64,000 bases of DNA from Gammaproteobacteria bacterium. Lineage in GTDB: Bacteria > Pseudomonadota > Gammaproteobacteria > JAABTG01. The notes below the pieces were generated by a model that did no database searches, was not told the origin of the DNA, and was given only the letters and a program-made list of their open reading frames with translations. Position numbers and translations under genes: made by a program. Location: assembly GCA_034522055.1 (NCBI GenBank), contig JAXHLS010000002.1, positions 3,553,549 through 3,617,548 on the forward strand. The letters run 5' to 3'. This document shows, one piece after another, positions 6,334-63,316 of this stretch. How positions within the stretch are numbered: position 1 is the stretch's first letter; every line of letters begins with the position of its first letter.

Positions 6334-6716
6334 TTGGCCATCAGCAAAGAACAAGAGGCGCAGATCCTGCGCTATCACTACGTCGAGAAGTGGCGGGTGG
6401 GCACCATTGCCAGCCAGTTGGGCGTACACCACAACGTCGTCAATCGGGTGCTCTCCCAGGCCGGCATGCCGAAGGTCGAGCGGGCTGCGCAGCCGTCGAT
6501 GATCGATCCTTATCTGCCGTTCATCACCGACACCCTGGCCCAGTTCCCCACGCTCACCGCCAGCCGCCTCTACGGCATGGTGCGTGAACGGGGCTACCCC
6601 GGCGGCCCCGACCACTTCCGCCATCAGCTCGCCTGTTACCGGCCACGCCCCCGGCCCGAGGCCTTTCTGCGCCTGAAGACCCTGCCCGGCGACCAGGGAC
6701 AGATCGACTGGGGCCT
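6334..6716 (+). pseudogene. istA: istA, N-terminal part, cut by a RIT element
   Basis: Starting from a TTG at 6334 (GAGGAG about 7 bases upstream; an ATG at 6319 is the alternative), the frame encodes the N-terminal part of an IS21-family IstA transposase: [22 protein letters not shown], then the helix-turn-helix [18 protein letters not shown]. The catalytic domain begins with GDQGQIDWG (first Asp of DDE) and is then interrupted within the TGG GGC codons. At that point a palindromic RIT end starts (6710-6739). The rest of istA and all of istB are absent from the window, so material has been lost at this junction. Confidence 0.8.
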
Positions 6717-6767
6717 ATGCCGAGTTCGGCATAGGCCCCACTATGCCGAGTTTCAGACTATGCCGAG
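6710..6767. repeat. RIT-4 terminal structure: core, hairpin, inverted core, repeat
   Basis: Within istA, GGGGCC (6710-6715) is followed by the hairpin TATGCCGA-GT-TCGGCATA (6716-6733), then the inverted core GGCCCC (6734-6739), then two direct copies of ACTATGCCGAGTTT-like sequence (6740-6767). A further copy in opposite orientation, ACTCGGCATAG, lies at about 6832-6842 beside the gene end. This repeats the arrangement at the ends of RIT-1, RIT-2 and RIT-3 with a different sequence. Confidence 0.75.
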
Positions 6768-6854
6768 TTTTTCCTCTTGTCCCTCGTGGTGACCCTCAAC
6801 TTAAGGTCTCGGGTAAGCCATGCGAGTCGATAACTCGGCATAGTCGCTATTGCG

Positions 6855-7853
6855 TCAAAGCGCCTTGAGGAAGGCGACCAAGGCATCATCGGGTTTGTAG
6901 ATCCCGTGGGAGCCCTCGTGCGGTGTGGTCTTGGCAAGGACTCTTTCCTTCATCGCCAAGTCGGCCTCCAGATAAATGTGCGTGGTCTGCACCGACTCAT
7001 GGCCCAGCCACAGGGCGATCACAGTTGTGTCGACGCCCGCCTGCAACAATTCCATGGCGGCGGTATGTCGCAGAAGGTGTGGAGACACTCGTTTGCCACG
7101 AAGTGACGGACAGGTTTCACGGGCGGTTGCAACATGCTTGGCCAGCAGATACTGGAGTCCGTCGTTACTCAGGCGAGTACCGCGGCGGTTGGGAAAGAGG
7201 ATCCGCCCTTCGCCCACTGCCGGTTCTGCCAACCAGGCCTGGAGTACCGCCACCGTCTGACGGGCGAGTGGAACGGCGCGTTCCTTTCGGCCCTTGCCCA
7301 GCACATGCACATAGGCACCGCTGCCGAGATGGGTATCCTCGCGCGCCAGTGCGGTCAGTTCGGACAACCGCAACCCGGTTTGTACCGCCAGCAAGATCCA
7401 AGCGTGATCACGCCGGCCAGACCAAGTGGATGGGTCCGGGGCGGCGAGTAGAGCGTCGATTTCCGGCCGGGGCAGGTAATGGACCTGCTCGTGCGTACAG
7501 CGTTGGGCCGGAATCGCCAAGACCCGCTGGATCTGCTCGGCATGCTCCGGCAGTTCGAAGGCAGCGTAACCGAACAGAGAACGGATAGCTGTCAGGCGCA
7601 AATTGCGGGTGCGCGCCCCAATCCCACGCTGCGCCTGAAGATCGTCGAGAAAAATGCCAACAAGCGGCGCGTCGATCTCCTCCCAGGCCAGTTGGGACGG
7701 CTCTTTGCCAAGACGCGTCTTGGCGAACCGCAGCAGCAAGCGAAAGGTATCGCGGTAAGAGTGGATGGTGTGGGGACTGACTTGTCGTTGTTGCATCAGC
7801 CGCTGGGTGAAAAAGCGGGTCAACATGCTGGCGAAAGATGTTTGCGGCTTCAC
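6855..7853 (-). CDS. RIT-4 tyrosine recombinase, third gene
   Basis: This 332-residue site-specific recombinase has an N-terminal SAM-like core-binding domain (FTQRLMQQRQVSPHTIHSYR) and a C-terminal catalytic domain with Box I QTGLRLSELTAL (about 155-170), Box II HLLRHTAAMELL (about 255) and ALWLGHESVQTTHIYLEAD, which carries the nucleophilic Tyr near 290. I chose the GTG at 7853, which overlaps the stop of the second gene (GTGA), as in the sister elements and because it aligns with the start of RIT-1's third gene. All catalytic residues are present, but its element is disrupted by RIT-1 in the preceding gene. Confidence 0.85.
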   Translation of the reverse strand: MKPQTSFASMLTRFFTQRLMQQRQVSPHTIHSYRDTFRLLLRFAKTRLGKEPSQLAWEEIDAPLVGIFLDDLQAQRGIGARTRNLRLTAIRSLFGYAAFELPEHAEQIQRVLAIPAQRCTHEQVHYLPRPEIDALLAAPDPSTWSGRRDHAWILLAVQTGLRLSELTALAREDTHLGSGAYVHVLGKGRKERAVPLARQTVAVLQAWLAEPAVGEGRILFPNRRGTRLSNDGLQYLLAKHVATARETCPSLRGKRVSPHLLRHTAAMELLQAGVDTTVIALWLGHESVQTTHIYLEADLAMKERVLAKTTPHEGSHGIYKPDDALVAFLKAL

Positions 7854-8041
7854 GATACGTCCTCCCAGCGATTTTCCAGCCGGTCCTTGGCCGCCTCCAT
7901 TAGCTCGGGACAGGCCGACAGATACCAATAGGTATCCCGGACTTCGACATGACCAAGGAAGGCCGACAGTACGGGTAGCCGCCGCTCCACGTCTTGCTTT
8001 TCCCGATACCATCGCACCACCGTCGAGATGGCAAAATGATG
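7850..8041 (-). pseudogene. RIT-4 second recombinase, C-terminal part
   Basis: Reading leftward from the RIT-1 junction, the frame gives HHFAISTVVRWYREKQDVE, then LSAFLGHVEVRDTYWYLSAC and the stop at 7850. This is the end of a tyrosine recombinase, with the last catalytic His (GH) and the Tyr of DTYWYL. It matches in phase the N-terminal part at 11478-12236, which breaks after RIQDLRH. Rejoining the two across RIT-1 with a single copy of the 6-bp core restores DLRHHFA, the normal Box II motif. The gene is therefore inactivated by RIT-1. Confidence 0.85.
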
Positions 8042-8097
8042 ACGCTTATGCCGCGCGCGGCATAAGCGTCATCATGCCGACAACCGGATTATGCCGA
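8036..8097. repeat. RIT-1 left end: core, 28-bp palindrome, inverted core, terminal repeat
   Basis: ATGATG (8036-8041), palindrome with arms ACGCTTATGCCGCG / CGCGGCATAAGCGT (8042-8069), CATCAT (8070-8075), then the 22-bp terminal repeat (8076-8097). Together the first three parts make a 40-bp perfect palindrome. The terminal repeat also contains TTATGCCGA, a relative of the hairpin arm, which suggests a shared recombinase-binding word. A probable promoter for the trio lies between this end and the start at 8225. Confidence 0.88.
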
Positions 8098-8224
8098 GTG
8101 ATCGGCAATCCTTTGCTTTTTTCTCTCCTAGTTTTGCCTAGTTACGGCCATAGCACGGTTTTCAGACGCGGCATAATCCGGTCATCTCTCCGGACTGACA
8201 ATAGGGTCAGGAAGGAGAAGAGAC

Positions 8225-9469
8225 ATGCTCAAAGAGTTCTTAAAACAGGGCGATTTCCTCGAGCGCTTACACAGTAACCCGCTGCGGGAACACCTCGATT
8301 CGTTCTCGACCTCACTGGTCGAGGAAGCCTACGCTTCGTCGACAGTCCGATTGAAGCTTCTCTGGGTCGTCGAATTTGGTTGGTGGCTGCAAGAGGAGCA
8401 GCTCACAGCTGAGCAGCTCAGCGAGCACATTGTCGATCGGTTCCTGAAGGAGTTGCAGCGCCTGGGACAGCTGCAGCGAGGTCAAAGGCCGACCACCCTA
8501 AGGTTTGTTGCGTATCTGCAGAGTCAGGGGGTCATTCCGTTTCCTGAGCCGGTTTGTGACACCTCGCCGCTGGCCGAGCTCGAGCGCCGGTACGAGCGCT
8601 ATCTGCGAACCGAACGCGGCCTGACCACGGCGACGGTGTTGAACTACCGGCCCGCTGCCCATGGTTTTCTGGTCCATCATTTCGGCGACGGCCCCTTGCG
8701 TATCGAGGAGCTGACGGGATCGGACATCTCCACCTACGTCCTTACCCACGCTCGCTGCCAAGGCGCAAAAAGAGCGCAGCTTCTAGTCACGGCACTGCGC
8801 TCGTTCTTTCGATTCTTGTTGCGCGAGGCGAAGACCCAGATCGATCTGGCCGCTTGTGTGCCGGCCGTCGCGGATTGGCGCTTGTCGTCCGTTCCCAAAT
8901 TCCTGACCGCGGAGGAGATCCAACGCCTGTTGGATGGCTGCGATCGCACGACAGCGACAGGGAGACGCGACTATGCGGTCCTGGTCCTCCTCGCCCGCCT
9001 TGGACTACGTGCCGGCGAGGTCGTCGCCCTCGAAATCGATGACATCAATTGGCGAGCCGGCGAAGTGATGATTCGCGGGAAAGGCTTCGTGCATGAGCGC
9101 TTACCGTTGCTCACCGAACCGGGAGAGGCGATGGCTGCCTACTTGCGTCGGGATCGTCCCGAGACCCGCTCGCGCCGGGTCTTCGTTCGCATGAAGGCAC
9201 CCCATTCGGGCTTCGCCGGGCCATCAACCGTCTCGACCATTGTTCGGCGCGCTCTGGAACGCGCCAGTCTCCAACCGCCTGCCAAGGGCGCCCACCTACT
9301 CCGCCACACCCTGGCGACGGAGATGCTCCGAGGGGGTGCATCCATGAGCGAGATCGGCCAAGTGCTCCGACATCGCTCCCCGAACACCACGGAGATTTAC
9401 GCCAAAGTCGACCTCTCCGGTCTCCGCTCCCTTGCCCCACCGTGGCCGGACATAGGGGGTGGGCAATGA
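8225..9469 (+). CDS. RIT-1 tyrosine recombinase, first gene
   Basis: This 414-residue recombinase has an ATG at 8225 preceded by a strong GGAAGGAG site. An N-terminal domain of about 110 residues is followed by a SAM-like domain (LERRYERYLRTERGLTTATV), a short helical region and the catalytic domain: Box I RLGLRAGEVVALE (near 260), Box II HLLRHTLATEML (near 358), GQVLRHRSPNTTEIY with the Tyr near 391. The stop overlaps the next start as ATGA. In RIT elements the three recombinases are believed to act together. The division of labour between them is not known. Confidence 0.9.
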   Translation: MLKEFLKQGDFLERLHSNPLREHLDSFSTSLVEEAYASSTVRLKLLWVVEFGWWLQEEQLTAEQLSEHIVDRFLKELQRLGQLQRGQRPTTLRFVAYLQSQGVIPFPEPVCDTSPLAELERRYERYLRTERGLTTATVLNYRPAAHGFLVHHFGDGPLRIEELTGSDISTYVLTHARCQGAKRAQLLVTALRSFFRFLLREAKTQIDLAACVPAVADWRLSSVPKFLTAEEIQRLLDGCDRTTATGRRDYAVLVLLARLGLRAGEVVALEIDDINWRAGEVMIRGKGFVHERLPLLTEPGEAMAAYLRRDRPETRSRRVFVRMKAPHSGFAGPSTVSTIVRRALERASLQPPAKGAHLLRHTLATEMLRGGASMSEIGQVLRHRSPNTTEIYAKVDLSGLRSLAPPWPDIGGGQ

Positions 9470-10407
9470 ACCAGCTACGTGACGCTTTGGAGGAGTATCT
9501 TGCCGTGCGCCGGAGCCTGGGATTTGGCCTGCGGATACCGGCGAGCTTGCTACATAACTTTGTCTCCTTTCTGGAAGCCAACGAGGCGACCTATATTACC
9601 CGAGCGTTGGCGATTCGCTGGGCCGAACAACCCCGCGACGCGCAGCTAGCCACATGGGCGGGGCGCCTGGGAGTGGTGCGTCGCTTCGCCCGCTGGCGCA
9701 GCGTGACCGATCCGCGCACCGAGATCCCACCGGATGGCCTCTTGCCTTACCGCTACCACCGTAACCCTCCTTACATTTACACCGATGAGGAGATCGAGCG
9801 GCTCCTTGGCGCCGCCGCAGGGCTGCCTTCCGCCAATGGCCTGAAAGCCCGCAGCTACTTGACGCTGTTCGGCCTGCTTTCCGTCACGGGCATGCGCGTA
9901 AGCGAAGCACTCATGCTCGATCGTGTGGATGTCGATTTGGAGCAAGGAATCCTTACCATACGACGCACGAAGTTCGGCAAGTCACGGTTGGTGCCAGTCC
10001 ATCGCTCAACCCGCGATGCGCTGGAAAGCTACGACACGCAAAGAACGCGTGTGTTTCCCCGCCCGGAAACACCGGCATTCTTTCTCTCCGAGCGTGGTCG
10101 ACGCATCACGGAGTGGAGCGCGCGTTACACCTTCGCGAAACTCTCCCAACGGATCGGCCTGCGCGGCGCCGCGAAGGGTCACGGGCGCGGACCGCGGATT
10201 CATGACATGCGCCACCGATTTGCGGCCCGCACGTTACTGCAATGGTACCGCGCGGGGGTCGATGTCGAGCACGAGTTACCCAAGCTTGCCACCTATCTTG
10301 GCCACGTTCACGTGAATGAGACCTACTGGTATCTCGAGGCCGTCCCGGAACTCCTCCAGTTGGCCACCAAGCGCCTGATGGAGAAGGCCGAGGAGGTCCG
10401 CTCATGA
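9466..10407 (+). CDS. RIT-1 tyrosine recombinase, second gene
   Basis: This 313-residue recombinase starts at the ATG at 9466 inside ATGA, which overlaps the stop of the first gene; an upstream ATG in the same frame (9442) is less likely because the sister elements start at the overlap. Domains: N-terminal LRDALEEYLAVRRSLGFGLR, then the catalytic domain with SVTGMRVSEALML (Arg near 144), IHDMRHRFAARTLL (Box II near 247) and YLGHVHVNETYWYLEA with the Tyr near 287. This type contains the TKFGKSR(L/W)VP segment typical of the middle RIT protein. It ends ATGA-overlapped with the third gene. Confidence 0.9.
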   Translation: MNQLRDALEEYLAVRRSLGFGLRIPASLLHNFVSFLEANEATYITRALAIRWAEQPRDAQLATWAGRLGVVRRFARWRSVTDPRTEIPPDGLLPYRYHRNPPYIYTDEEIERLLGAAAGLPSANGLKARSYLTLFGLLSVTGMRVSEALMLDRVDVDLEQGILTIRRTKFGKSRLVPVHRSTRDALESYDTQRTRVFPRPETPAFFLSERGRRITEWSARYTFAKLSQRIGLRGAAKGHGRGPRIHDMRHRFAARTLLQWYRAGVDVEHELPKLATYLGHVHVNETYWYLEAVPELLQLATKRLMEKAEEVRS

Positions 10408-11399
10408 TCGCCAACAGCTTTCCCGCCATGCTTCAATCCTTTTTCACGGAGCGCCTATTTCGGCAACGCTGCGCCAGCGGACACACCATCGCTGGATACC
10501 GTGATGCCTTCCGTCTTCTTCTGCGTTACGCAGCAGAACGCCTCGGCACAGCGCCCTCGAAACTGCGGCTCGAGGATCTCGATGCGTCCTTCATCGGGCA
10601 GTTCCTCGATCATCTCGAACAGGAGCGGGGAAACAGCGCGCGCACCCGCAACGCCCGCCTGGCTGCAATCCATTCGTTCTTTCAATATGTCGCTTTGGAG
10701 GAGCCCGCCCATGCGCTGCTTTGCCAGCGCGTCCTGGCCATGCCGAACAAACGCCATGAGCGCCGGCTGATCGAGTTTCTCCACCGCGATGAGATCGATG
10801 CATTGATCGCCGCTCCAGACCCCTCCACGTGGATCGGCCGCCGGGATCGAACCTTCCTGACCGTGGCCGTTCAGACAGGACTGCGGGTTTCTGAACTGAT
10901 CGGACTTCGCTGTCAGGACGTCGTTCTGGAAACCGGGGCCCATGTGACATGCCTAGGAAAAGGCAGAAAACAACGCGCAACACCACTGAGTGAGGAAGTT
11001 GCGGCCATGTTGGGCAGTTGGCTGCAAGAGCGTAACGGCTTGCCTCAAGAGCCAGTCTTTCCCAGCAGCCGCGGCGGGCCACTCAGCCGGGATGCGATCG
11101 AACGCCTGGTCGCAAAACATGCCAAGATAGCCGAGCAAAGCTGTCCCTCCCTGCGCCGCAAAAAAGTGACCGCCCATGTCCTGAGGCACAGCGCCGCGAT
11201 GGACCTTTTGCAGCACGGTATCGATCGATCGGTGATTGCCCTCTGGCTGGGACATGAGTCCGTGGAAACGACACAGATGTATCTCCATGCAGACCTCCGC
11301 CTGAAGGAGCAGGCGCTGTCTCGCACCACGCCCCGAGGGATCGAACCGGCTCGCTACCGCCCCGACGACCAGCTGCTGGCATTCCTCGAGAGCCTGTGA
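10404..11399 (+). CDS. RIT-1 tyrosine recombinase, third gene
   Basis: This 331-residue recombinase starts in the ATGA overlap. The SAM-like domain (FTERLFRQRCASGHTIAGYR) is followed by the catalytic domain with QTGLRVSELIGL (Arg near 160), HVLRHSAAMDLL (Box II near 257) and ALWLGHESVETTQMYLHAD (Tyr near 292). The protein is close in sequence to the RIT-4 third protein and identical to RIT-2's. The stop at 11399 lies about 55 bases from the right terminal repeat, and between them is a GC-rich stretch without a further gene. Confidence 0.9.
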   Translation: MIANSFPAMLQSFFTERLFRQRCASGHTIAGYRDAFRLLLRYAAERLGTAPSKLRLEDLDASFIGQFLDHLEQERGNSARTRNARLAAIHSFFQYVALEEPAHALLCQRVLAMPNKRHERRLIEFLHRDEIDALIAAPDPSTWIGRRDRTFLTVAVQTGLRVSELIGLRCQDVVLETGAHVTCLGKGRKQRATPLSEEVAAMLGSWLQERNGLPQEPVFPSSRGGPLSRDAIERLVAKHAKIAEQSCPSLRRKKVTAHVLRHSAAMDLLQHGIDRSVIALWLGHESVETTQMYLHADLRLKEQALSRTTPRGIEPARYRPDDQLLAFLESL

Positions 11400-11455
11400 T
11401 TATGCCGACTCGAGGCACCGCCCGAGCGCCGCCAGCCGCTTTCCAGCAGCGCGAT

Positions 11456-11483
11456 TCGGCATAATCCGGTTGTCGGCATGATG
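11456..11483. repeat. RIT-1 right terminal repeat and core
   Basis: TCGGCATAATCCGGTTGTCG... (11456-11477) is the exact complement of 8076-8097 and is followed by the core ATGATG (11478-11483). This end has no hairpin, unlike the left end. Sequence beyond it, CCGCAGGTC, is the DLR codons of the RIT-4 second recombinase. Confidence 0.9.
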
Positions 11484-12236
11484 CCGCAGGTCCTGAATGC
11501 GCGGTGCCGGATGACCGCCGCGGGCGGTCCACTGGAGCCGTCGGCGCAGCTGGGCGAAGGCGTACTCGATATTTCGGGGCCGGGCTGGACGCCCGGCATC
11601 ACCGACGAAGAAGGCCTCGCTGGGGGCGGCTCGCGGGTCGCGGTCCCGGATCTGCGCATAGCGCCGCAGAACCCGGGTCGTGGTGGGATGCAGGGGTACC
11701 CAGCGGGACTTGCCGAACTTGGTGTGCCGGATCAGCAGCACCCCTTGCGCGAGATCCACATCCTCACGGGTGAGTCCTGTGGCCTCCGAGAGCCGCAGGC
11801 CGGTGGCGGCGATGAGCCCAAAGATTGCCCGGCAACACAGGGCCCGCAGGCTACCCGGAGGGTGCAACTTCTTGGTGGCATTGAGCAGCGCGCGGATCTC
11901 GCCCTCGGTGTAGATATGTGGCGTCAGGCGGCGGTGGCCGCGGCCGAGAAGCCGCCGTGGCGGCACCTGAGTGCCGGGCTCGAGATGCTGCCAGAAGCGC
12001 GCGAGCCCGCGCAGGACCTCGAGACGCCGGGGTGCGGTCAGGGGGCTTGGCCGGGGTGAGGCCGTGGCCCAGCGCACGGCGAGGTCCAGGGTCAACGGCC
12101 CCTGATGGCCGCACTGCTCGGCGAACTCGGCGAAGCGCAGCAGCTGCTGGCCTTCGATGCGGAGCGCGTAGCCCGCGTGGCGGCGCTCGGCCAGGTAGCG
12201 CTCCACTCTGGCCCGCATGGTGACGGGCGCGTTCAT
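11478..12236 (-). pseudogene. RIT-4 second recombinase, N-terminal part
   Basis: Starts at the ATG at 12236, overlapping the end of the upstream recombinase. It contains the N-terminal domain (RARVERYLAERRHAGYALR) and the first half of the catalytic domain: ATGLRLSEATGL with the first catalytic Arg, and TKFGKSRWVPLHP. It ends abruptly after RIQDLRH, where RIT-1 begins, and then reads a few codons of RIT-1. The second Arg, last His and Tyr are in the other piece at 7850-8041. The split is exactly in Box II. Confidence 0.88.
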
Positions 12237-13498
12237 GGCCGTCTCCCCGGCCAGGGCAGCGCCACCTTCTTCAACCCTTCGAGGTCGACTTTGGCGTAAA
12301 TCATGGTCGTGTCGAGGCTACGATGGCGCAGCAGATCGGCGATGGCCTTGAACGAGGCACCGCTCTGGACGAGCCGACAGGCGATGGTGTGGCGCAGCAC
12401 ATGGGGCCCGGGGAGTCGCGTGGCTAGTCCACATCGCCGGGCCGCGTTGCGGATCGCCCCCCGGATGGTGGTGGGCGTCACCGGTCTCTCGAGGGGTGGG
12501 CGATGGCGCAGGAACAGGTCGCGGCGTGGCGTCGCGCGACGCCCGGAACGCAGGTAGGCCACGATGGCTCGAGCGGTCGTCGGCGGCAATGGCAACACGT
12601 CGGTGCGTCTGCCCTTCGAGCGGATCCGGATCTGGCCCTGCTGCCAGTCTAGGTCGTCGAGCTGCAGCCGCCCGATCTCGGCAGTTCGCAGCCCGAGATC
12701 CACGTAGCAGCGGGCAATGGCATAGTCCCGGCGCCCGTTCGCGGTGCGGCGATCGAAGGCCCCGAGGAGCTGCTCCACCTCCTGCCGCGAGAGCCCCCGT
12801 GGCAGCTGGCTCAGCCGCCACTGCGCCACGTGGGGCACTGCGCCGGCGAGGGACGCAGTGTCCATACCCTGGACAGCCTTGAAGCGCAGGTAGCTCCGCA
12901 GCGCGATGCAGACCTGCTTGACCGAGGTGGGCTTCCAGCCCGCGGTGTGCTCCGTCACGAACCGCGCAATGTCGTCCGGGGCGAGCGTTGCCATCTGAAG
13001 GGCACCCTGGACGAAGTGCGCGAGGAGGAAGTGATAAACGTGCTTCAGCTGACCCTGGTATCGGGTCACCGCCTGCAGGCCTCGGACATCGGCGAGATAG
13101 GTGTCGAAGGCTTGGAGCTCAGCCTCGATCGCTGCGGGGATGGCCAGGGCGCTCTCGGCGCTCAGTCCTTCGGTCCGGAGCTGGGCGAGCAGCTGGACCA
13201 ATGCTGCGCGGACATCCGCTCTCGACCGAACGCAGCACGGCGCGCATCGGCATTGGGGCAGATGGTCGTCAACGAAGCGACGGACCAGCTCCTCGTCGAT
13301 CTCCCCGATGGCATTCAGTCGCGGTGCGGACCAATGGGCGAAATGGGCAACGGCCCGCAGATAGCGGTCGATAGTGCCTGGGGCGTAGCCGCGTGCCTCC
13401 AGCCAGGCCACGTAGGGCTCCGCATGAGAATCCAGAACCGTACCGGCGAACCACCCTCGGGTGGCGCGCGATAACCGAGATGAGAACGAGAGGGACAT
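12233..13498 (-). CDS. RIT-4 tyrosine recombinase, first gene
   Basis: This 421-residue recombinase starts at the ATG at 13498. It has a long N-terminal region including a Cys-rich stretch (CRCAPCCVRSRADVRAAL), which is common in first-position RIT proteins, then a SAM-like domain (FDTYLADVRGLQAVTRY), and the catalytic domain: DLGLRTAEIGRLQ (Box I), HVLRHTIACRLV (Box II) and DLLRHRSLDTTMIYAKVD (Tyr). The gene appears intact. The start is preceded by AGGAGTGCCGCC. Since the second gene of the trio is broken by RIT-1, the element is probably not mobile by itself. Confidence 0.85.
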   Translation of the reverse strand: MSLSFSSRLSRATRGWFAGTVLDSHAEPYVAWLEARGYAPGTIDRYLRAVAHFAHWSAPRLNAIGEIDEELVRRFVDDHLPQCRCAPCCVRSRADVRAALVQLLAQLRTEGLSAESALAIPAAIEAELQAFDTYLADVRGLQAVTRYQGQLKHVYHFLLAHFVQGALQMATLAPDDIARFVTEHTAGWKPTSVKQVCIALRSYLRFKAVQGMDTASLAGAVPHVAQWRLSQLPRGLSRQEVEQLLGAFDRRTANGRRDYAIARCYVDLGLRTAEIGRLQLDDLDWQQGQIRIRSKGRRTDVLPLPPTTARAIVAYLRSGRRATPRRDLFLRHRPPLERPVTPTTIRGAIRNAARRCGLATRLPGPHVLRHTIACRLVQSGASFKAIADLLRHRSLDTTMIYAKVDLEGLKKVALPWPGRRP

Positions 13499-13647
13499 GG
13501 CGGCACTCCTTCATGACGGATGAACCTCGAAGGAAAGCACCGCTGCTTATGCACGACAACTCAGCACCGAAGGAAGGTGACCGGTTAGTAAAATCAAGCC
13601 GTTAAGGTGGCAACGCGCGGCGAACCTTGCATAATCGAGAGGCTTAC
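13499..13647. other. Junction region between RIT-4 and IS66
   Basis: This stretch of about 150 bases upstream of the RIT-4 first gene holds no gene. At 13626-13652 the minus strand reads TTATGTAAGCCTCTCGATTA, which contains the GTAAGC start typical of IS66-family ends, directly abutting the cut-off IS66 tnpC (after FAVGR). The expected RIT-4 terminal repeat is not visible. The region may be a deletion joint between an element end and IS66. Confidence 0.4.
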
Positions 13648-14025
13648 ATAACGCCGGCCAACCGCAAACGGCCGGATGGCGTTTTCCGCCAGGGCATTGC
13701 TGATATGCAGCCGGCCATCGGCGCAGTAACCGACCAGCAGGTCCCACTGGTTGAGGGTGTACGCCATGGCCTTGGCCGTCAGGCTGTCTTTCGGCACGCG
13801 ACTGATGTTGGCCTTTAACCACGTCTCCAGATCATCGAGCACGGGCTGGCTGAGCTGTTGCCGTTGCGCGGTCCTCTGCTCTGGGGGCAGATCCTTGATA
13901 CGGACCTCGATACGATACAGCTTGCGGATCTTGCCAATGGCCACGTCCGCCTTGCTGACCTTGTCGCTTTTTCGGGTCGCCGGCGCAGCCTTGGCGGCTT
14001 CGACAAACTTTCGCCGCGCATGGTC
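13648..14025 (-). pseudogene. tnpC: IS66 tnpC, C-terminal part
   Basis: Reading leftward from the RIT-3 junction: DHARRKFVEAAKAAPATRK, then GKIRKLYRIE and HISNALAENAIRPFAVGR. These are the segments after the GCWDH motif of IS66 TnpC, including the catalytic Glu (AEN). After GR the sequence departs from the family (RYVSLSIMQGSP), so the last 50 or so residues are lost. The frame is continuous with the N-terminal part at 21035-22051 if RIT-3 and one ATGGTC are removed. Confidence 0.85.
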
Positions 14026-14083
14026 CTTATCTGGATCTCGAGATAAGGACCATTATCCCGCGTCCCGTTTTATCCGGAGTCAG
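14020..14083. repeat. RIT-3 left end: core, hairpin, inverted core, 30-bp terminal repeat
   Basis: ATGGTC (14020-14025), imperfect palindrome CTTATCTGGATCTCGAGATA... (14026-14047), GACCAT (14048-14053), then the terminal repeat (14054-14083). The outer arms, including the cores, form a 13-bp perfect stem with an 8-base loop. Same plan as RIT-1 and RIT-4 but unrelated sequence. Confidence 0.88.
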
Positions 14084-15402: not shown

Positions 15403-17049
15403 CCCTAACCCGGCATAGCCGGAACCAAAATATCTCGGATCGCCTATCCTTATCCACAGCACCATCCAGGACAAGAGGGACAGGCCATGAATCCGTTCGT
15501 TGAACGTCACCAGAACAAGATCGCCGGTGTGCTCTCCTGTTTTGACCGGGTTGTCATCACCGGAACCCTTCCTGATATCGGTTATGCCGGCGCTATGGCG
15601 AGCTACCTCAGTTACCATAAGATCCGACTGTTCGACTACCCCCGGTGGGCAGAACCCCTGCGCGATGAGTTGCGCCACCATGCCGAGCAACTCGCCATCG
15701 AGGCCGGCATTGAGATCGAGTTCATCCGGCGCCACAAGGCCTTTCGCAAAGAAGACCGTATCAAGGCCATCATTGCGGAACGCGGCGGTCATCCCGGGCT
15801 GGTCCACATCTTCTCCGCCATGGAATCCTGCACCGCTTATCGCCCCTGGCATGACAAGAACACAGGCCATACCCTGCTCAAACCCACGTCAGGGAAATGC
15901 CTGCATTACTACTTCTACTTCATCGATGAGGCCTTTGGACTCTGTTACGTGCGGGTGCCCACCTGGGCGCCGTTCCGCCTGCAAGTCTACTTCAACGGCC
16001 ATCACTGGCTGGCGCGCAGACTGGAAAAAGCCGGCATTCCCTTCGCGATGGCGGACAATGCCTTTCTGTCCATTGCCGATCCCGAGCAGGCTCAGACGCT
16101 TGCCGACCGGCTGGATGCCAAACAGCTTCACCGACGACTGAATCGATGGGCCAAACAGTTCTGCCCGGTAGCTCAGCGCTTTCGCTCCGGTTACCACTGG
16201 AGCTTGATGCAGGTGGAGTTCGCCACCGATGTCATCTTCCACCAGCAGGCCGAATTCCAGCCGCTCTACGAGTCCATCACCCGCACGGCGGTACAGGCCA
16301 TTAAAGCCGACAATGTGGCCACCTTCCTTGGCCGTAAACTCGCCAGCACCTATCAAGGGGAGGTCGGTAACGATTTCAGCACCCGTATCCAGGGTACACG
16401 CATCCGCCACCAGATGGGGCCGGCCAGCATCAAACTCTACGATAAAGCCGGCATCATGGCGCGTGTGGAATGCACCACCAACGATGCCTCATTCTTCAAA
16501 ATCCACCGCTGGGTGGAACAACGTGACGGCTGGCAACAGTGGAAACTGGCACCGCTACGCAAAAATATCTACAGCCTGCGCGATCTGCGCAAGCTGATGA
16601 ACGCCGCCAATGAGCGCTATCTCGCCTATATGGCGGCAATCGACAATCCTGACGCCGGACTCAAGGACATCGATAAAATGTCCAGCCCCGCCAGGGACCA
16701 GGGCCGTTCATTCCGTGGCTTCAATCTGTTCCAGAAAAAGGACTATCATCTCTTCCTCGCCATCGGGCGGGGCGAATGGTCAATCAGTGGCTTCCGTGCC
16801 GCCGATCTGCGGGCCTCTATGCCCGATCTATCACCCAGTCAATCATCCTATCTACTCAAACGGTTACGAACCCACGGACTGATCAAGAAAGTGGGACGTC
16901 GCTACAAGTATTACCTTACAAAGTTTGGGCGTCGCGTCCTGGCTGCATCACTCAAGATGCGTGAATATTGTGTTCTCCCTGCACTCTGTGCTGACAGGGC
17001 ATGAGAATTTCTTGGCATTCTTGTCCAAGATTTCAGTGGTAAGGTACTA
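15403..17049 (+). mobile_element. Unclassified 1647-bp mobile element, copy 1
   Basis: The sequence from CCCTAACCCGGCATAGCCGG (15403) to GTGGTAAGGTACTA (17049) recurs at 57432-59078, exactly as far as I can read, and the flanking sequences are unrelated, so the two copies define the ends to within a base or two. There are no terminal inverted repeats and no obvious target duplication. A short hairpin lies near each end: CCGGC-ATA-GCCGG at the left, TCTTGG-N9-CCAAGA at the right. Its only gene encodes a 505-residue protein. This copy lies in the leader of the ISL3 element. Confidence 0.85.
15487..17004 (+). CDS. Putative novel mobility protein with C-terminal winged helix (copy 1)
   Basis: The 505-residue protein starts at the ATG at 15487 behind GAGGGACAGGCC. 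I do not recognise a DDE, HUH, serine or tyrosine recombinase signature. Visible features: an N-terminal segment NPFVERHQNKIAGVLSCFDR, a histidine-rich central part (FNGHHWLARRLEKAG), a conserved-looking basic stretch GTRIRHQMGPASIKLYDKAG followed by MARVECTTND (residues about 300-340; the K-x-Y-D-K...R-x-E pattern is reminiscent of replication initiators), and a C-terminal MarR-like winged helix (LSPSQSSYLLKRLRTHGLI, then RRYKYYLTKFG). Because the whole unit has moved, this is the likely mobility protein. Its mechanism is unknown. Confidence 0.75.
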   Translation: MNPFVERHQNKIAGVLSCFDRVVITGTLPDIGYAGAMASYLSYHKIRLFDYPRWAEPLRDELRHHAEQLAIEAGIEIEFIRRHKAFRKEDRIKAIIAERGGHPGLVHIFSAMESCTAYRPWHDKNTGHTLLKPTSGKCLHYYFYFIDEAFGLCYVRVPTWAPFRLQVYFNGHHWLARRLEKAGIPFAMADNAFLSIADPEQAQTLADRLDAKQLHRRLNRWAKQFCPVAQRFRSGYHWSLMQVEFATDVIFHQQAEFQPLYESITRTAVQAIKADNVATFLGRKLASTYQGEVGNDFSTRIQGTRIRHQMGPASIKLYDKAGIMARVECTTNDASFFKIHRWVEQRDGWQQWKLAPLRKNIYSLRDLRKLMNAANERYLAYMAAIDNPDAGLKDIDKMSSPARDQGRSFRGFNLFQKKDYHLFLAIGRGEWSISGFRAADLRASMPDLSPSQSSYLLKRLRTHGLIKKVGRRYKYYLTKFGRRVLAASLKMREYCVLPALCADRA

Positions 17050-21004: not shown

Positions 21005-21040
21005 CTGACTCCGGATAAAACGGGACGCGGGATAATGGTC
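21005..21040. repeat. RIT-3 right terminal repeat and core
   Basis: CTGACTCCGGATAAAACGGG... (21005-21034) is the exact complement of 14054-14083, followed by the core ATGGTC (21035-21040). No hairpin is present at this end. The next bases, CCAGCAGCC, are the GCW codons of IS66 tnpC on the opposite strand. Confidence 0.9.
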
Positions 21041-22051
21041 CCAGCAGCCGATGCGGGTGATCGGGTTGTCACGACAGACCTGGTTGTAACCGGCATAGCC
21101 GTCGGTCTGCAGCACGCCTTCGAAGCCGTCGAGCAGGCGCAAGGGGACCTCCTCGCCGCGCGAGGTGTCGTAGTGAAACAGCACCACCGGTCGCTCGGGT
21201 GGTCCTCCGCGGACCAGCCACATCCATTTATCCGATGTGGCGACCTTGCCATCTTCCTTGAGGACTTGGATGCGGGTCTCGTCGGCCTGCAGGTAATCAC
21301 CGGACAACTGCTGTTCGCGTAGCAGGTTGATCAGGGGTTTGAAGACATCATCCAGGCGGATGATCCAATTCGCCATCGCCGTGCGGCTGATGGGGCCACC
21401 ATAGCGCTGCAGGATCTTCTCAAGGCGATACAGCGGCAGGGCATCGGCATACTTGGCCACCAGGATGTAGGCCAGCAGCGAGACGCTGGCGAGGCACTTG
21501 CCGAGCGGGTGGACGGGACGGGTCGCCGCCTTGACGAGCGATTTGCCCTCATCGTCGTGGTCATCGAACACGGCCTTCTCCTGCCAGTACTCGATGACCC
21601 GCGCCTGCGCCGGCACGATGTCCAGTTCTTCCTTAACCTTGGTGAAGAAGGTCTTGCTGGCCCCAACCTTCTCCTCATCGCGCAGCGCCAGCTCGACCCG
21701 CACGCGCGGCAGCCTGTCGGAGAACCCTTCGGCTTTCTTGCGTGGCGGCCGCGGCACCGGCGCGTCGGCCTTTTCCAACTCGGCCTCGACCTCGCCGAGG
21801 GCGACTTCCAATTCGGCCTCGTCAAAGAAGTCACCCTGGAAGGCGAGCTTCTCGCTGCTGGCACCGAAGCGTTTTTGCTTGGCCAGGCGCAGTTGCTCCT
21901 CCAGCAGCCTGAGCAGCTTCTGCTGCTCGGCAATGAGCCGCTCGTGCTTGGCGATCAGGTGGTCTTTCTGCTCAATGACGTCGAGCAGAGCCGGTATCGA
22001 TACGGGCGTATCGGGAGCGGGTTTCAGCTGCGTTTTCTGCGCGTCCAACAT
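21035..22051 (-). pseudogene. tnpC: IS66 tnpC, N-terminal part
   Basis: Starts at the ATG at 22051. A coiled-coil leader (LIAKHERLIAEQQKLLRLLE) with the LRLAKQKRFGASSEK motif of IS66 TnpC, a basic middle region, and the first part of the DDE domain: GDYLQADETRIQV (first Asp) and GVLQTDGYAGYN (second Asp), then GCWDH, where RIT-3 begins. The remaining part with the Glu is at 13648-14025. The gene is split by about 7 kb and inactive. Confidence 0.9.
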
Positions 22052-27260: not shown

Positions 27261-27535
27261 GGCCCAACGGCCCAGGGGCCGGCGCTTTGCATCGCCCTGA
27301 ACGAGGGGCTACAAAACGCGAAGCGCCACTCGGCCGGCTTCAAGTTTTCGAGGTTTGGATCTTCAGTCATAGGTGTTCGCAATGACGTAGGGTGGGTCAA
27401 GCGTAGCGGACCCACCGGTCAGGAGGGGGGCAATGACCCGGCGCCCAATGGTGGAATCGCTGCGCTTGTTCCACCCTACAATTGATTCACCATTCACCAT
27501 TCACCATTCACCATTCACCATTCACCATTCCCCAT
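27261..27535. repeat. Gap with a CCATTCA heptamer array
   Basis: The 3' flank of the next gene contains about eight tandem copies of CCATTCA between 27486 and 27540, one altered to CCCCATTCA. The array runs into the stop codon of the RibD-like gene. The rest of the gap shows nothing. A related word (GGTGAATaGTGAAT on the plus strand) lies before soeB at 38608-38634. Confidence 0.6.
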
Positions 27536-28381
27536 TCACCAATCGTTCCGGGCATTGGTCTCGAAGGCGGCGAACCACTGGCCGGTGGCCTGGGGTGGGC
27601 CGGGGTCGTAGTGGAGGGAGCGCATGCGGAGGCGGCCGGTGTCGCCGAGTTCGGGGCCGAAGGCGGGGGTGTGGAAGGCCTCGCCGCCGAGGATGCGGTG
27701 GTTGAGGGTGAGGTAGAGGCGGGCCAGCACGCCGTCGGCCAGGGTGGAGGCCAGCATGCGGGGGCCGGTGAGGAGGTAGAGGCGGCGATAGCCCATTTCT
27801 CCCAGGGTGCGGGCCATGAAGGCGCCGTCCACCAGGGCCCCCGGGGCGCTGGCGATGACGGGGTAGCCCTGCCCGCGCCAGTAGTCCACCCGCCGGGGCG
27901 GGGCGTCGCCACCGGTGATGATGATTACGGCCTGGCCGTGGTGGGCCAGGGACGGCGGCAGGGGAAAGTCGAGGCTGCGGCTGACGATGGCCACGGCGGG
28001 CTGGTGGGTGAGGCCGCGGGCCTGGCGCCATTCGCCGATGTCCCGGGCCCGGGAGGAGATCCCCACCTGGAGGATGTCCCCCAGCCTGCCCTCGGCCAGG
28101 GCCCGCAGGTAGCCGCTGTGGGTCACGAGGCAGTCGGCGTGGGCCTGGAGTTCCTGGAACAGGCGAAAGTCGCGGGCGCTGGTGAGATACTTGGGCACGT
28201 GGGATCTGTCCCCGGGCTCATCCGCCAGGGCGATGCGCCCGTCCAGGCTGGTGACGAAGTTGGCGTAGACGAAGGGGCGCTCCGGGGAGCCCAGGGTGTG
28301 GATGTCCTCCGCCAGGTAGGTACCCTCGAGGCGGCGCCGGGCGCCTGGCTCCGGGTAGAGCTCCATGAGCTCGTCTACCAT
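27536..28381 (-). CDS. RibD C-terminal-type reductase
   Basis: This 281-residue protein starts at the ATG at 28381 and belongs to the RibD_C/dihydrofolate reductase-like fold. Visible motifs are RPFVYANFVTSLDGRIALAD at the N-terminus, the substrate/NADPH-binding segment conserved in pyrimidine reductases, DCLVTHSGYLRA, and near the C-terminus RLYLLTGPRMLASTLADGVL, equivalent to the 'EGG..L......L.DE' region. The deaminase domain of RibD is absent, so it is either a stand-alone 5-amino-6-ribosylaminouracil reductase or, more often for such genes, a related oxidoreductase of unknown substrate. There are no riboflavin genes nearby. Confidence 0.75.
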   Translation of the reverse strand: MVDELMELYPEPGARRRLEGTYLAEDIHTLGSPERPFVYANFVTSLDGRIALADEPGDRSHVPKYLTSARDFRLFQELQAHADCLVTHSGYLRALAEGRLGDILQVGISSRARDIGEWRQARGLTHQPAVAIVSRSLDFPLPPSLAHHGQAVIIITGGDAPPRRVDYWRGQGYPVIASAPGALVDGAFMARTLGEMGYRRLYLLTGPRMLASTLADGVLARLYLTLNHRILGGEAFHTPAFGPELGDTGRLRMRSLHYDPGPPQATGQWFAAFETNARNDW

Positions 28382-35184: not shown

Positions 35185-35532
35185 GGACACCCATCCCTGC
35201 GTAGGCCGGACACCCACTCCAAGAGTGCGAGAGCGTAGGCCGGACACCCACTCCAAGAGTGCGAGAGCGTAGGCCGGAGCGTAGGCCGGACACCCACTCC
35301 AAGTGCGTAGGCTGGACCGGAGCGTAGGCCGTACGTAGGCTGGACACCCACCCCAAGGTGAGGTGCGTAGGCCGGACACCCCAAGCGTAGGCCGGACACC
35401 CACCCCAAGGCACATGGGAGCGTACGTAGGCTGGACACCCACCCCAAGGTGAGGTGCGTAGGCCGGACACCCCAAGCGTAGGCCGGACACCCACCCCAAG
35501 GCACATGGGAGAGTGCGCAGGCCGGACACCCA
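35185..35532 (+). repeat. GGACACCCAC array A (11 units)
   Basis: Units begin at 35185, 35208, 35242, 35288, 35342, 35374, 35394, 35433, 35464, 35484 and 35524. Most are preceded by GTAGGCCG or GTAGGCTG and followed by TCCAAG or CCCAAGG. The part 35342-35420 is repeated at 35433-35510, giving a tandem of about 90 bases. Units read in the same direction as the upstream PilZ gene. Flanked on the right by the soeA leader. Nothing in this gap codes for protein. Confidence 0.88.
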
Positions 35533-35544
35533 ACCCACGGCCCT

Positions 35545-40351: not shown

Positions 40352-40362
40352 GACTCACTACG

Positions 40363-40511
40363 GAGACGCCCACTCGAGCGGACCCACTACAGAGACACCC
40401 ACTCGAGGGGATCCACTACGGAGACACCCACTACAGGATCCACTACGGAGACACCCACTACAGAGACACCCACAGGATCCGACATCTCAAGACGTTACCG
40501 AGACACCCACC
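40363..40511 (+). repeat. GGACACCCAC-related array B (6 units, GAGACACCCAC variant)
   Basis: GAGACACCCAC (first unit GAGACGCCCAC) begins at 40363, 40392, 40421, 40448, 40463 and 40500, with variable linkers including CTACGGA, CTACAGGATC and CTCGAG. The array starts 12 bases after the soeC stop and reads in the same direction as soeABC. The remaining sequence to 40687 shows nothing recognisable. Confidence 0.85.
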
Positions 40512-43724: not shown

Positions 43725-44162
43725 TACCTGACCTGACCCGCACTTTACCCCTTTCCCCGGCTTTACCCGCGCCTTTTCCGCGCCTTTACCCGGAGGGGCT
43801 TTACCCGGACACCTGGGCTTTACCCGGACACCCACGTTACTCCCGGGCTTTACTCGAGGGCTTTACCCGGACACCCACGTTACTCCCGGGCTTTACTCGA
43901 GGGCTTTACCCGGACACCCACCTACTCCCAGCTTGGAAGAGGCTTTACCTGGACACCCACACTACTCCCAGCTTGGAAGGGCAGCAGGAAGTCGTACTCA
44001 ACTCATTTAAGCGAGGGAGAACGCTTCCTCGTGGTTTCGGGTGGACAGGAGTAATCCCGGTGGCCAGCCCGGACGTGCGTCTACGGACATGGGCAGCAGA
44101 TCATGCTGCCGGGGTTCTTGGTATGTTCAGGAGCCCGGCGCGATACGGCTTTGGTGTGCGGC
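43725..44162 (+). repeat. GGACACCCAC array D (5 units) and the flank of the Y1 transposase gene
   Basis: GGACACC units begin at 43807, 43826, 43869, 43912 and 43951 with a 43-base tandem period for the middle units (GGACACCCACGTTACTCCCG, then GGGCTTTACTCGAGGGCTTTACCC split by the linker). The stretch before it is a pyrimidine-rich run of CTTTACCC words. The array follows uup in the same direction and ends about 200 bases before the 3' end of the Y1 transposase gene. Nothing else is visible here. Confidence 0.85.
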
Positions 44163-57431: not shown

Positions 57432-59078
57432 CCCTAACCCGGCATAGCCGGAACCAAAATATCTCGGATCGCCTATCCTTATCCACAGCACCATCCAGGA
57501 CAAGAGGGACAGGCCATGAATCCGTTCGTTGAACGTCACCAGAACAAGATCGCCGGTGTGCTCTCCTGTTTTGACCGGGTTGTCATCACCGGAACCCTTC
57601 CTGATATCGGTTATGCCGGCGCTATGGCGAGCTACCTCAGTTACCATAAGATCCGACTGTTCGACTACCCCCGGTGGGCAGAACCCCTGCGCGATGAGTT
57701 GCGCCACCATGCCGAGCAACTCGCCATCGAGGCCGGCATTGAGATCGAGTTCATCCGGCGCCACAAGGCCTTTCGCAAAGAAGACCGTATCAAGGCCATC
57801 ATTGCGGAACGCGGCGGTCATCCCGGGCTGGTCCACATCTTCTCCGCCATGGAATCCTGCACCGCTTATCGCCCCTGGCATGACAAGAACACAGGCCATA
57901 CCCTGCTCAAACCCACGTCAGGGAAATGCCTGCATTACTACTTCTACTTCATCGATGAGGCCTTTGGACTCTGTTACGTGCGGGTGCCCACCTGGGCGCC
58001 GTTCCGCCTGCAAGTCTACTTCAACGGCCATCACTGGCTGGCGCGCAGACTGGAAAAAGCCGGCATTCCCTTCGCGATGGCGGACAATGCCTTTCTGTCC
58101 ATTGCCGATCCCGAGCAGGCTCAGACGCTTGCCGACCGGCTGGATGCCAAACAGCTTCACCGACGACTGAATCGATGGGCCAAACAGTTCTGCCCGGTAG
58201 CTCAGCGCTTTCGCTCCGGTTACCACTGGAGCTTGATGCAGGTGGAGTTCGCCACCGATGTCATCTTCCACCAGCAGGCCGAATTCCAGCCGCTCTACGA
58301 GTCCATCACCCGCACGGCGGTACAGGCCATTAAAGCCGACAATGTGGCCACCTTCCTTGGCCGTAAACTCGCCAGCACCTATCAAGGGGAGGTCGGTAAC
58401 GATTTCAGCACCCGTATCCAGGGTACACGCATCCGCCACCAGATGGGGCCGGCCAGCATCAAACTCTACGATAAAGCCGGCATCATGGCGCGTGTGGAAT
58501 GCACCACCAACGATGCCTCATTCTTCAAAATCCACCGCTGGGTGGAACAACGTGACGGCTGGCAACAGTGGAAACTGGCACCGCTACGCAAAAATATCTA
58601 CAGCCTGCGCGATCTGCGCAAGCTGATGAACGCCGCCAATGAGCGCTATCTCGCCTATATGGCGGCAATCGACAATCCTGACGCCGGACTCAAGGACATC
58701 GATAAAATGTCCAGCCCCGCCAGGGACCAGGGCCGTTCATTCCGTGGCTTCAATCTGTTCCAGAAAAAGGACTATCATCTCTTCCTCGCCATCGGGCGGG
58801 GCGAATGGTCAATCAGTGGCTTCCGTGCCGCCGATCTGCGGGCCTCTATGCCCGATCTATCACCCAGTCAATCATCCTATCTACTCAAACGGTTACGAAC
58901 CCACGGACTGATCAAGAAAGTGGGACGTCGCTACAAGTATTACCTTACAAAGTTTGGGCGTCGCGTCCTGGCTGCATCACTCAAGATGCGTGAATATTGT
59001 GTTCTCCCTGCACTCTGTGCTGACAGGGCATGAGAATTTCTTGGCATTCTTGTCCAAGATTTCAGTGGTAAGGTACTA
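57432..59078 (+). mobile_element. Unclassified 1647-bp mobile element, copy 2
   Basis: Identical by eye to 15403-17049 over its entire length, including non-coding ends. Left flank GCCTCCACAAG and right flank TAATGCGCGCC do not match those of copy 1 and show no direct repeat of each other. It lies between the L,D-transpeptidase gene and tRNA-Ser, so the final TA of the element joins TAAT to create or preserve a TATAAT hexamer. Perfect identity between copies suggests recent activity. Confidence 0.85.
57516..59033 (+). CDS. Putative novel mobility protein with C-terminal winged helix (copy 2)
   Basis: Residue-for-residue identical to the protein at 15487-17004. This copy lies in chromosomal DNA, not inside an IS, so its presence cannot be explained by carriage of the ISL3. 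The unchanged reading frame in both copies implies that the protein is maintained or recently spread. The C-terminal winged helix (YLLKRLRTHGLIKKVGRR) may recognise element ends or repress the gene. No known recombinase signature was found by eye. Confidence 0.75.
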   Translation: MNPFVERHQNKIAGVLSCFDRVVITGTLPDIGYAGAMASYLSYHKIRLFDYPRWAEPLRDELRHHAEQLAIEAGIEIEFIRRHKAFRKEDRIKAIIAERGGHPGLVHIFSAMESCTAYRPWHDKNTGHTLLKPTSGKCLHYYFYFIDEAFGLCYVRVPTWAPFRLQVYFNGHHWLARRLEKAGIPFAMADNAFLSIADPEQAQTLADRLDAKQLHRRLNRWAKQFCPVAQRFRSGYHWSLMQVEFATDVIFHQQAEFQPLYESITRTAVQAIKADNVATFLGRKLASTYQGEVGNDFSTRIQGTRIRHQMGPASIKLYDKAGIMARVECTTNDASFFKIHRWVEQRDGWQQWKLAPLRKNIYSLRDLRKLMNAANERYLAYMAAIDNPDAGLKDIDKMSSPARDQGRSFRGFNLFQKKDYHLFLAIGRGEWSISGFRAADLRASMPDLSPSQSSYLLKRLRTHGLIKKVGRRYKYYLTKFGRRVLAASLKMREYCVLPALCADRA

Positions 59079-59612: not shown

Positions 59613-59768
59613 TCAGGACGAGGGGTCGAGGGGCAAGGTCAGTTGGTTATCGTGGGGGCGCTGTTCGTCGAGCACGGTGATGTCGCGCTGCGCGGCGGCC
59701 ATGAGCAGTTCGGCGGCCATACCGATGAAGATGCGGTAGTTGCCTGCGGCGTGATCGGCGAGCGTGTG
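59613..59768 (-). pseudogene. AAA ATPase of transposition type, C-terminal part
   Basis: Read leftward from the RIT-2 junction: TLADHAAGNYRIFIGMAAEL followed by LMAAAQRDITVLDE and a stop at 59613. This is the end of the ExeA/TniB-like ATPases that accompany some DDE transposases. The piece continues the sequence interrupted at 63211 (ATREELLACLEHLLAAAGN, then TQELRH). Joined, they read ELRHTLADHAAGN, with the spacing normal for the family. Confidence 0.75.
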
Positions 59769-59951
59769 ACGCTTATGCCGCGCGCGGCATAAGCGTCATC
59801 ATGCCGACAACCGGATTATGCCGAGTGATCGGCAATCCTTTGCTTTTTTCTCTCCTAGTTTTGCCTAGTTACGGCCATAGCACGGTTTTCAGACGCGGCA
59901 TAATCCGGTCATCTCTCCGGACTGACAATAGGGTCAGGAAGGAGAAGAGAC

Positions 59952-63126: not shown

Positions 63127-63210
63127 TTATGCCGACTCGAGGCACCGCCCGAGCGCCGCCAGCCGCTTTCCAGCAGCGCGATTCGGCATAATCCGGTTGT
63201 CGGCATGATG

Positions 63211-63316
63211 GCGCAGTTCCTGGGTCATGAGGCCGGTGTTGCCGGCGGCGGCGAGTAGGTGTTCTAGGCAGGCGAGGAGCTCTTCACGGGTTGCGACGCC
63301 GGTCGCGAGGCGTGTG
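63211..63316 (-). pseudogene. AAA ATPase of transposition type, central part
   Basis: Read leftward from about 63316: RLATGVATREELLACLEHLL followed by AAAGNTGLMTQELRH, where RIT-2 begins. It continues in phase at 59768-59613. Upstream of 63316 the sequence changes to the N-terminal part of a different gene in another frame, so the Walker motifs of this ATPase are lost. A decayed IS remnant. Confidence 0.7.

Follow-up and report, generated by a model that had tools for sequence, protein, structure and literature searches.

The window is the whole stretch of 64,000 nucleotides of gammaproteobacterial DNA that was analysed, and it contains RIT-1 together with RIT-2, RIT-3 and RIT-4. RITs were named in 2009-2010 and are spread over many phyla, and to our knowledge their three recombinases, their palindrome and their movement have hitherto been without explanation. 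They have been described as three overlapping tyrosine-recombinase genes in about 3.5 kb, bounded by 28-29-bp inverted repeats with an "overlapping palindromic sequence" (PMC3414803). Van Houdt et al. recorded the inverted repeat and the palindrome without explaining them, and mobility was undemonstrated (PMC3414803). Two core-binding domains are present in RitA, and RitC has an additional helix (PMC8138268); the earlier literature offers no convincing recombinase sites (PMC3414803, PMC2864759).

RIT-1 has the make-up of such an element: three adjacent, overlapping tyrosine-recombinase genes in the order A-B-C, a terminal inverted repeat of about 28 bp with an adjoining palindrome, a length of about 3.5 kb (3436 bp from palindrome to distal repeat), and several near-identical copies. 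There are five of these in the 5.1-Mb host genome, three of them identical. We write o for the outer core, P for the palindrome, i for the inner core and r for the distal core, so that an integrated RIT reads, in order, left target, o (6 bp), P (20 bp), i (6 bp), a terminal repeat of about 26 bp, ritABC, the other terminal repeat, r (6 bp) and right target. The parts of RIT-1 and its flanks are as follows.

6855-8012, minus strand: ritC of RIT-4; the left side of RIT-1 sits in RIT-4 ritB (HDLRH codons)
8040-8045, plus strand: outer core o, TGACGC, element-borne, at the palindrome-side junction; also in RIT-2 and L003
8046-8065, plus strand: palindrome P, TTATGCCGCGCGCGGCATAA, read as two inverted half-sites
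8066-8071, plus strand: inner core i, GCGTCA
8072-8097, plus strand: terminal repeat at the ritA end, TCATGCCGACAACCGGATTATGCCGA, with outer and inner ATGCCG repeats
8225-9469, plus strand: ritA, tyrosine recombinase, 414 aa (Pfam PF00589)
9442-10407, plus strand: ritB, tyrosine recombinase, 321 aa, overlapping ritA (Pfam PF00589)
10404-11399, plus strand: ritC, tyrosine recombinase, 331 aa, ATGA overlap with ritB (Pfam PF00589)
11456-11481, plus strand: terminal repeat at the ritC end, inverted
11482-11487, plus strand: distal core r, TGCCGC, the same 6 bp as in the L031 empty site
11488-12236, minus strand: truncated ritB of RIT-X (intact in L031), QDLRH codons split at r

The inner core, the P arm and the terminal repeat beside it are predicted to form an intact, unused attachment site within the element. 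The locus as a whole (6709-13500) is chimeric, with RIT-4 on its left flank and RIT-X, uninterrupted in L031, on its right, which looks like the outcome of recombination between two RIT-1 copies lodged in separate RITs. RIT-4 with RIT-1 is found in both orientations in L028 and L029.

A perfect 40-bp palindrome at 8036-8075 (ATGATGACGCTTATGCCGCG / CGCGGCATAAGCGTCATCAT) abuts the RIT-1 terminal repeat on its outer side, and the earlier note had taken its extremities, ATGATG and CATCAT, for 6-bp cores. We dropped this register because an alignment of the five copies, together with empty sites, places the core 4 bp further in. The left flank of RIT-2 reads ...GAGCGTG/TGACGC..., sharing the palindrome solely from TGACGC inward, and a third copy of RIT-1 type (L003) has GAAGGTA in place of the outer ATGATG (...GGTA/TGACGC). 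TGACGC and all sequence inward of it are constant among the five copies compared, and o is TGACGC in RIT-1, RIT-2 and L003 despite their unlike outer flanks; by this comparison the ATGATG outside RIT-1 is target sequence and not part of the element. The same register, 4 bp inward, also fits about 60 other RITs when copies, empty sites and other RITs are aligned.

The corresponding parts of the other elements in the window are these.

59767-59772, plus strand: RIT-2 outer core o, TGACGC (outer flank ...GAGCGTG)
59773-59798, plus strand: RIT-2 palindrome (59773-59792) and inner core (59793-59798)
59799-59824, plus strand: RIT-2 terminal repeat, ritA end
63183-63208, plus strand: RIT-2 terminal repeat, ritC end
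63209-63214, plus strand: RIT-2 distal core r, TGGCGC; target codons QELRHT
14021-14078, plus strand: RIT-3 palindrome end, with o TGGTCC (14021-14026), P (14027-14046), i GGACCA (14047-14052) and terminal repeat (14053-14078)
21010-21041, plus strand: RIT-3 distal terminal repeat and r TGGTCC; target, HARRK motif of an IS66 transposase (GCWDHARRKF)
6709-6768, plus strand: RIT-4 palindrome end, here at the ritC end, with o TGGGGC (6709-6714), P (6715-6734, loop GT), i GCCCCA (6735-6740) and terminal repeat (6741-6768); target, IS21 istA, DWG/HFG

The common end plan proposed earlier, in which core, hairpin, inverted core and terminal repeat follow one another at one end, is seen in RIT-1, RIT-3 and RIT-4, but not as drawn in RIT-2, which is missing the outer ATGATG. 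The 6-bp slots said to flank the elements do exist, but the cores in them are of TGACGC type, lie 4 bp from where they had been placed and are not necessarily identical. RIT-2 (59767-63214, L004) is 99.88% identical to RIT-1. Compared with the three identical copies it has two single-base indels, which disrupt ritA and ritB, and the L005 copy has one single-base indel; these could be decay or long-read errors. Two identical copies of a 1647-bp insertion element lie at 15403-17049 and 57432-59078, one of them within RIT-3, and RIT-3 in L031 is free of it.

RITs were gathered by RitB profiles from GTDB species contigs and from whole-genome surveys, which gave 139 distinct places in many phyla. 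A strict detector called for a palindrome of 20 bp in which no more than 1 of 9 pairs was broken, set exactly 6 bp away on the outer side of a terminal repeat whose 25 bp matched the other end with at most 5 mismatches; 58 of the 139 places matched, against 0 of 139 with shuffled ends, a control that covers chance alone, the detector having been designed on the pattern it counted. Automatic detections judged false were removed (L033, L039, L053, L066, L072, L074, L098, L100, L207, L220, L243). Among 65 complete RITs, those with both repeats and flanks (no pair of terminal repeats could be detected at 54 of 138 places, and contig ends truncated a further 19), P stood at one end in 55, at both ends in five and at neither in five; 48 of the one-end cases were found automatically and seven by hand from alignments (L056, L069, L071, L084, L215, L225, L241). 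Most intact RITs thus have the hairpin (60/65 complete elements), as the earlier note had supposed, and they mostly have it at one end only, but which end varies: P was at the ritA end in half of the curated set of 66 elements (33) and at the ritC end in the other half (33). P was perfect (9/9 pairs) in 49 of the 66. An inverted core on both sides of the hairpin was found exactly in only 31 of 62 elements, o and i differing in the others, and o equalled r in 35 of 62.

Some ends have features of their own. In L037, L054, L055, L099 and L104 the core-palindrome-core unit is present as a direct repeat at both RIT ends, possibly left by a tandem insertion or by an element that entered next to the scar of an earlier palindrome. 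L088, L207 and L218 have a common sequence, cacctcccactaccgcgtcagcggtttagtaca, in place of the palindrome, probably one end of a different insertion sequence with RIT ends as its target. L241 has a second perfect palindrome (CCTCGATAATGCAAAGCTTTGCATTATCGAGG) a few bases beyond the RIT end, to the right of the distal repeat.

Empty sites bear on the origin of the cores. L031 has the gene occupied by RIT-1 without the element, with TGCCGC, equal to r, at the corresponding position. For L201 the empty site is in R. rhizogenes pRi1724 (AGTGCC, equal to r), and for L108 in two Burkholderia plasmids (ACGGCG, equal to r), while for L109 the nearest empty site has TGCGTG against an r of TGCGTA and an o of TGGGTC. 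The outer core differs by 3 bp from the empty site in L201 and L108. P is absent from all of these empty sites, which rules it out as a part of the target. Since the empty sites equal r (three exactly, one closely), the distal junction is seen to retain the target's own 6 bp while the 6 bp of the element are placed at the palindrome junction, as judged from these comparisons. In all four elements for which there is an empty site, the element core is on the palindrome side. L097 may depart from this, as its LRH codons are restored by the o core and not by r.

The distal core varies with the target among the RIT-1 copies (TGCCGC, TGACGC, TGCCGG, TGGCGC), and o and i share a base pattern with r (TGNCGN), which suggests that the circle at times takes up r; the next circle probably does so. 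As o and i look like target codons, the three slots may record the present and past targets of each copy. In L002 and L005, where RIT-1 lies inside RIT-4, r is TGACGC, and the remaining copies have TGACGC as o, as expected if they descend from a RIT-4 insertion.

The core counts might also be read in a simpler way, with RITs as ordinary inverted-repeat transposons, the hairpin being merely a terminator or cruciform and the 6-mers coming from target-site duplication. A strong hairpin does stand beside genes, and the equality of o and r in 35 of 62 elements resembles a 6-bp duplication. There is no duplication, however, in the empty sites where o differs from r; P changes gene end between identical copies (see below); and the exact 6-20-6 spacing across phyla, along with the likeness between P and the terminal repeats, is unexpected for a terminator. 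We consider this explanation the least credible of those weighed here, with hardly any probability left to it.

In Tn916/CTn elements, variable 6-bp junction segments travel with the element and the coupling sequence is possible at either flank, and Tn916 has one integrase and one site. The RIT cores behave like coupling sequences of the Tn916 type, as had been proposed for this locus, or of the type known from strand-biased circularizing integrative elements (SEs): in the empty-site comparisons one junction has the 6 bp of the target and the other has 6 bp borne by the element. RITs seem to differ from Tn916 in that the element's 6 bp is on the palindrome side wherever an empty site is available. 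The SE elements SE-6283 and SE-6945 likewise have a 6-bp coupling, in which motif C gets the 6 bp of the target and C' those of the circle (PMC10214605, PMC9345347), and they resemble RITs in having tyrosine recombinases, inverted terminal motifs and one-sided 6-bp coupling (PMC10214605, PMC9345347). The RIT distal end behaves as C and the palindrome end as C', and if SE motif C does correspond to the distal RIT end, the RIT exchange follows the SE rule (PMC10214605); the SE trait of target 6 bp at one end and circle 6 bp at the other is found here in three exact and one near empty site. SEs differ in their core genes (intA, tfp, intB, srap), in having only one joint site (attS) and in carrying cargo, with no two-site palindrome described, whereas RIT-1 has three genes only, all with a Phage_integrase catalytic domain.

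What P itself may be is suggested by its arms. They differ from the terminal-repeat motifs of their own element by 1.34 mismatches of 9, against 2.62 with elements permuted and 4.60 for random sequence, and because of this resemblance we take P to be a pair of recombinase half-sites, not an unrelated hairpin. A P arm, a 6-bp core and the outer repeat (e.g. GGCATAG-6-CTATGCC) have the geometry seen in dif, where two inverted arms surround a 6-bp centre (...GGCATAA-6 bp-TTATGCC...), and RitA, RitB and RitC are closest to XerC/XerD models. The likeness to dif and XerCD is limited in that the two RIT sites would share a central palindrome and integrate into protein-coding motifs, while dif serves chromosome dimer resolution. 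The earlier idea that the hairpin end consists of inverted half-sites thus stands as far as half-sites near 6-bp cores are concerned, but not as one site around one core: the hairpin looks instead like a half-site pair shared between two cores, and we infer that joined ends hold two complete head-to-head sites. When RitA, RitB and RitC distances were correlated with those of P arms, outer repeats and inner repeats in 58 elements, RitB predicted all classes best and no class was specific, so that the comparison matched no recombinase to a half-site class.

The position and direction of P in copies of the same element carry most of the argument. Identical copies (100% identity) within one genome bear P at opposite ends; in G377, for example, P is at the ritC end in L183, L184 and L187 and at the ritA end in L186 and L188. 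Where P is asymmetric its direction can be followed, and in all four informative cases (RIT-4 L028/L029, L189/L190, L191/L192 and L202/L203) it is constant in the frame of the element and reversed relative to the target. In RIT-4, L029 against L028, the element and the P loop (GT/AC) are both reversed in the same IS21 motif, and in G377 the asymmetric P of L191/L192 and of L189/L190 keeps the element frame and is turned relative to the target. The clearest pair is L202/L203 in G432, two identical 3504-bp copies that fit one joint with X TTTCGT, P TTATAGAAGGGCTTCTATAA and Y CCGCCG: o and i exchange exactly, the outer core of one being the inner core of the other. On this evidence X of the joint was the entry site for one copy and Y of the same joint for the other, and P can stand at either end of the element, beside ritA or ritC according to the site used. 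The idea that P is made anew at each insertion was ruled out, its sequence and central dinucleotide being constant in the element frame.

Both orientations could also arise if RITs entered in one orientation only and the segment between the inner core with its repeat and the distal repeat with its core were flipped later, by the element's recombinases or by homologous recombination, with P staying put. Inverted 28-bp repeats with matching cores do bound the gene block, and the RIT-1 copies L002 and L005, which share a target and have P on the same side with the gene block reversed, are what a flip would give. Yet P turned with the gene block in four of four asymmetric cases, o and i changed places in L202/L203, and a single inversion yields neither result; moreover, copies in opposite orientation sit at different places. 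With these four asymmetric palindromes, inversion alone is ruled out as the source of both orientations, and we regard this account as quite improbable.

Because P flips between copies and o and i swap in L202/L203, we prefer to read the palindrome end as the integrated form of a two-way attachment site, a reading to which we give a probability of roughly 80%. It starts from features that can be read off the aligned copies, namely the anatomy, the two orientations, the element-frame direction of P, the core swap, the identity of r with the target and the target motifs, while the circle, the order of strand exchange and the pairing of recombinases with half-sites are proposals. The circle joint would run from the ritC-side repeat through core X, the 20-bp P and core Y to the ritA-side repeat. 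A 6-bp core would lie between each P arm and the terminal repeat next to it, as the centre lies between the two arms of a dif-like tyrosine-recombinase site, and as this arrangement holds on both sides, the joint would have two complete head-to-head sites sharing P, either of them usable. Insertion through X would leave P at the ritA end; insertion through Y would leave it at the ritC end, with the element turned round. P would occupy one and the same side of the target whichever core was used, and the site left over, intact within the element, would be what the earlier note called the inverted core. The exchange would be one-sided, with the target's 6 bp (r) at the distal junction and the circle's 6 bp (o) at the palindrome junction, and the target would usually be a catalytic-motif codon triplet of a recombinase, a transposase or another mobile-element enzyme. 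The five elements with P at both ends and the five without P do not fit a simple two-site model. No double joint of the circle type was found in viral contigs or fetched loci, a result that does not show such joints to be absent.

A variant in which the joint is used as a folded single strand is more difficult to set aside. As in CTXphi attP or integron attC, a P hairpin on one strand of the circle would give a one-sided duplex, and the products would be identical to those of the two-site duplex. The joint as we reconstruct it comes close to a perfect inverted repeat (in order, repeat, core, P, core and repeat), and the palindromy of P (49/66 perfect) is kept more strictly than its likeness to the terminal repeats (1.34 mismatches of 9). 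The need for pairing, on the other hand, agrees poorly with X and Y, which are non-complementary in half of the elements (31/62), and in L202/L203 the core bases are mostly unpaired, yet the joint was used both ways. The arms of P are like the terminal repeats of their own element (1.34 against 2.62 permuted), as duplex half-sites would be, and the circles of SEs, the closest studied case, are double-stranded (PMC10214605). We consider the folded strand unlikely, though a stronger contender than later inversion.

Targets were read by rebuilding the uninterrupted reading frames, which left about 12 insertions without assignment. Most assignable targets are codons of conserved catalytic motifs. 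About 19 separate insertions are in the tyrosine-recombinase xRH box, with ritB and ritC of other RITs among the genes hit, and about 15 are in IS66 transposase motifs (ER, GRK, HARRK, TAK). Others are in the HExxH motif of ArdC-type zincins (four), HNHPSGD of RadC (one), PVDFRKG of IS66 TnpB (two), QRCWFHK of IS256 (two) and DWGHFG of IS21, the target of RIT-4. Pfam confirmed 16 of the 20 target pieces tested; of the four without a match, two are RitB-like by eye and the others are L040 and the RIT-2 target. Viral contigs gave five further RITs at one WQxHSxRG motif; these (L251, L252, L253, L256, L257) all lie at a W-x-x-H-(S/T)-(V/I)-R-G motif in one small protein family. Insertions in radC, IS66 tnpA and a Tn6049-type transposase gene were reported earlier (PMC2864759, PMC3414803), those in IS66 tnpA and radC singly (PMC2864759).

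On the coding strand a core of the TGNCGN class reads N-CGN-CA, so that its two variable positions are the wobble positions of Leu and Arg codons. We lean, with less assurance than for the two-way site, towards RITs being active-site-homing elements, with a bidirectional double attachment site and cores captured from earlier targets, that insert at invariant catalytic-motif codons (xRH, including that of other RITs, HExxH of ArdC-type zincins, RadC, IS66, IS256 and IS21). The core would tolerate wobble changes, the conservation of the protein would guarantee targets in any host, and each insertion would disable a rival mobile element or an anti-defence enzyme. Homing endonucleases and group I introns also occupy conserved active-site codons and tolerate synonymous variation. 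RITs differ from these in that they do not splice out, so that the target gene is destroyed, and in that their targets are mostly enzymes of other mobile elements.

Judged on the open literature, the joint with two cores, the use of either site, the one-sided 6-bp exchange and the targeting of catalytic codons are new for RITs. A two-site joint would explain why the palindrome is beside ritA in some copies and beside ritC in others, and as the joint sequence can be predicted for each copy, it offers a cheap and concrete test by PCR. The three 6-bp slots would give a record of provenance for each copy, RITs would, under the target rule, be natural and wobble-tolerant inactivators of transposons and integrases, and they are a possible source of bidirectional integration tools.

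Elsewhere in the window, intergenic tandem arrays at 35199-35541, 40352-40480 and 43815-43982 have a common core like GGACACCCAC with differing spacers, and a minisatellite of ATTCACC units lies at 27485-27540.
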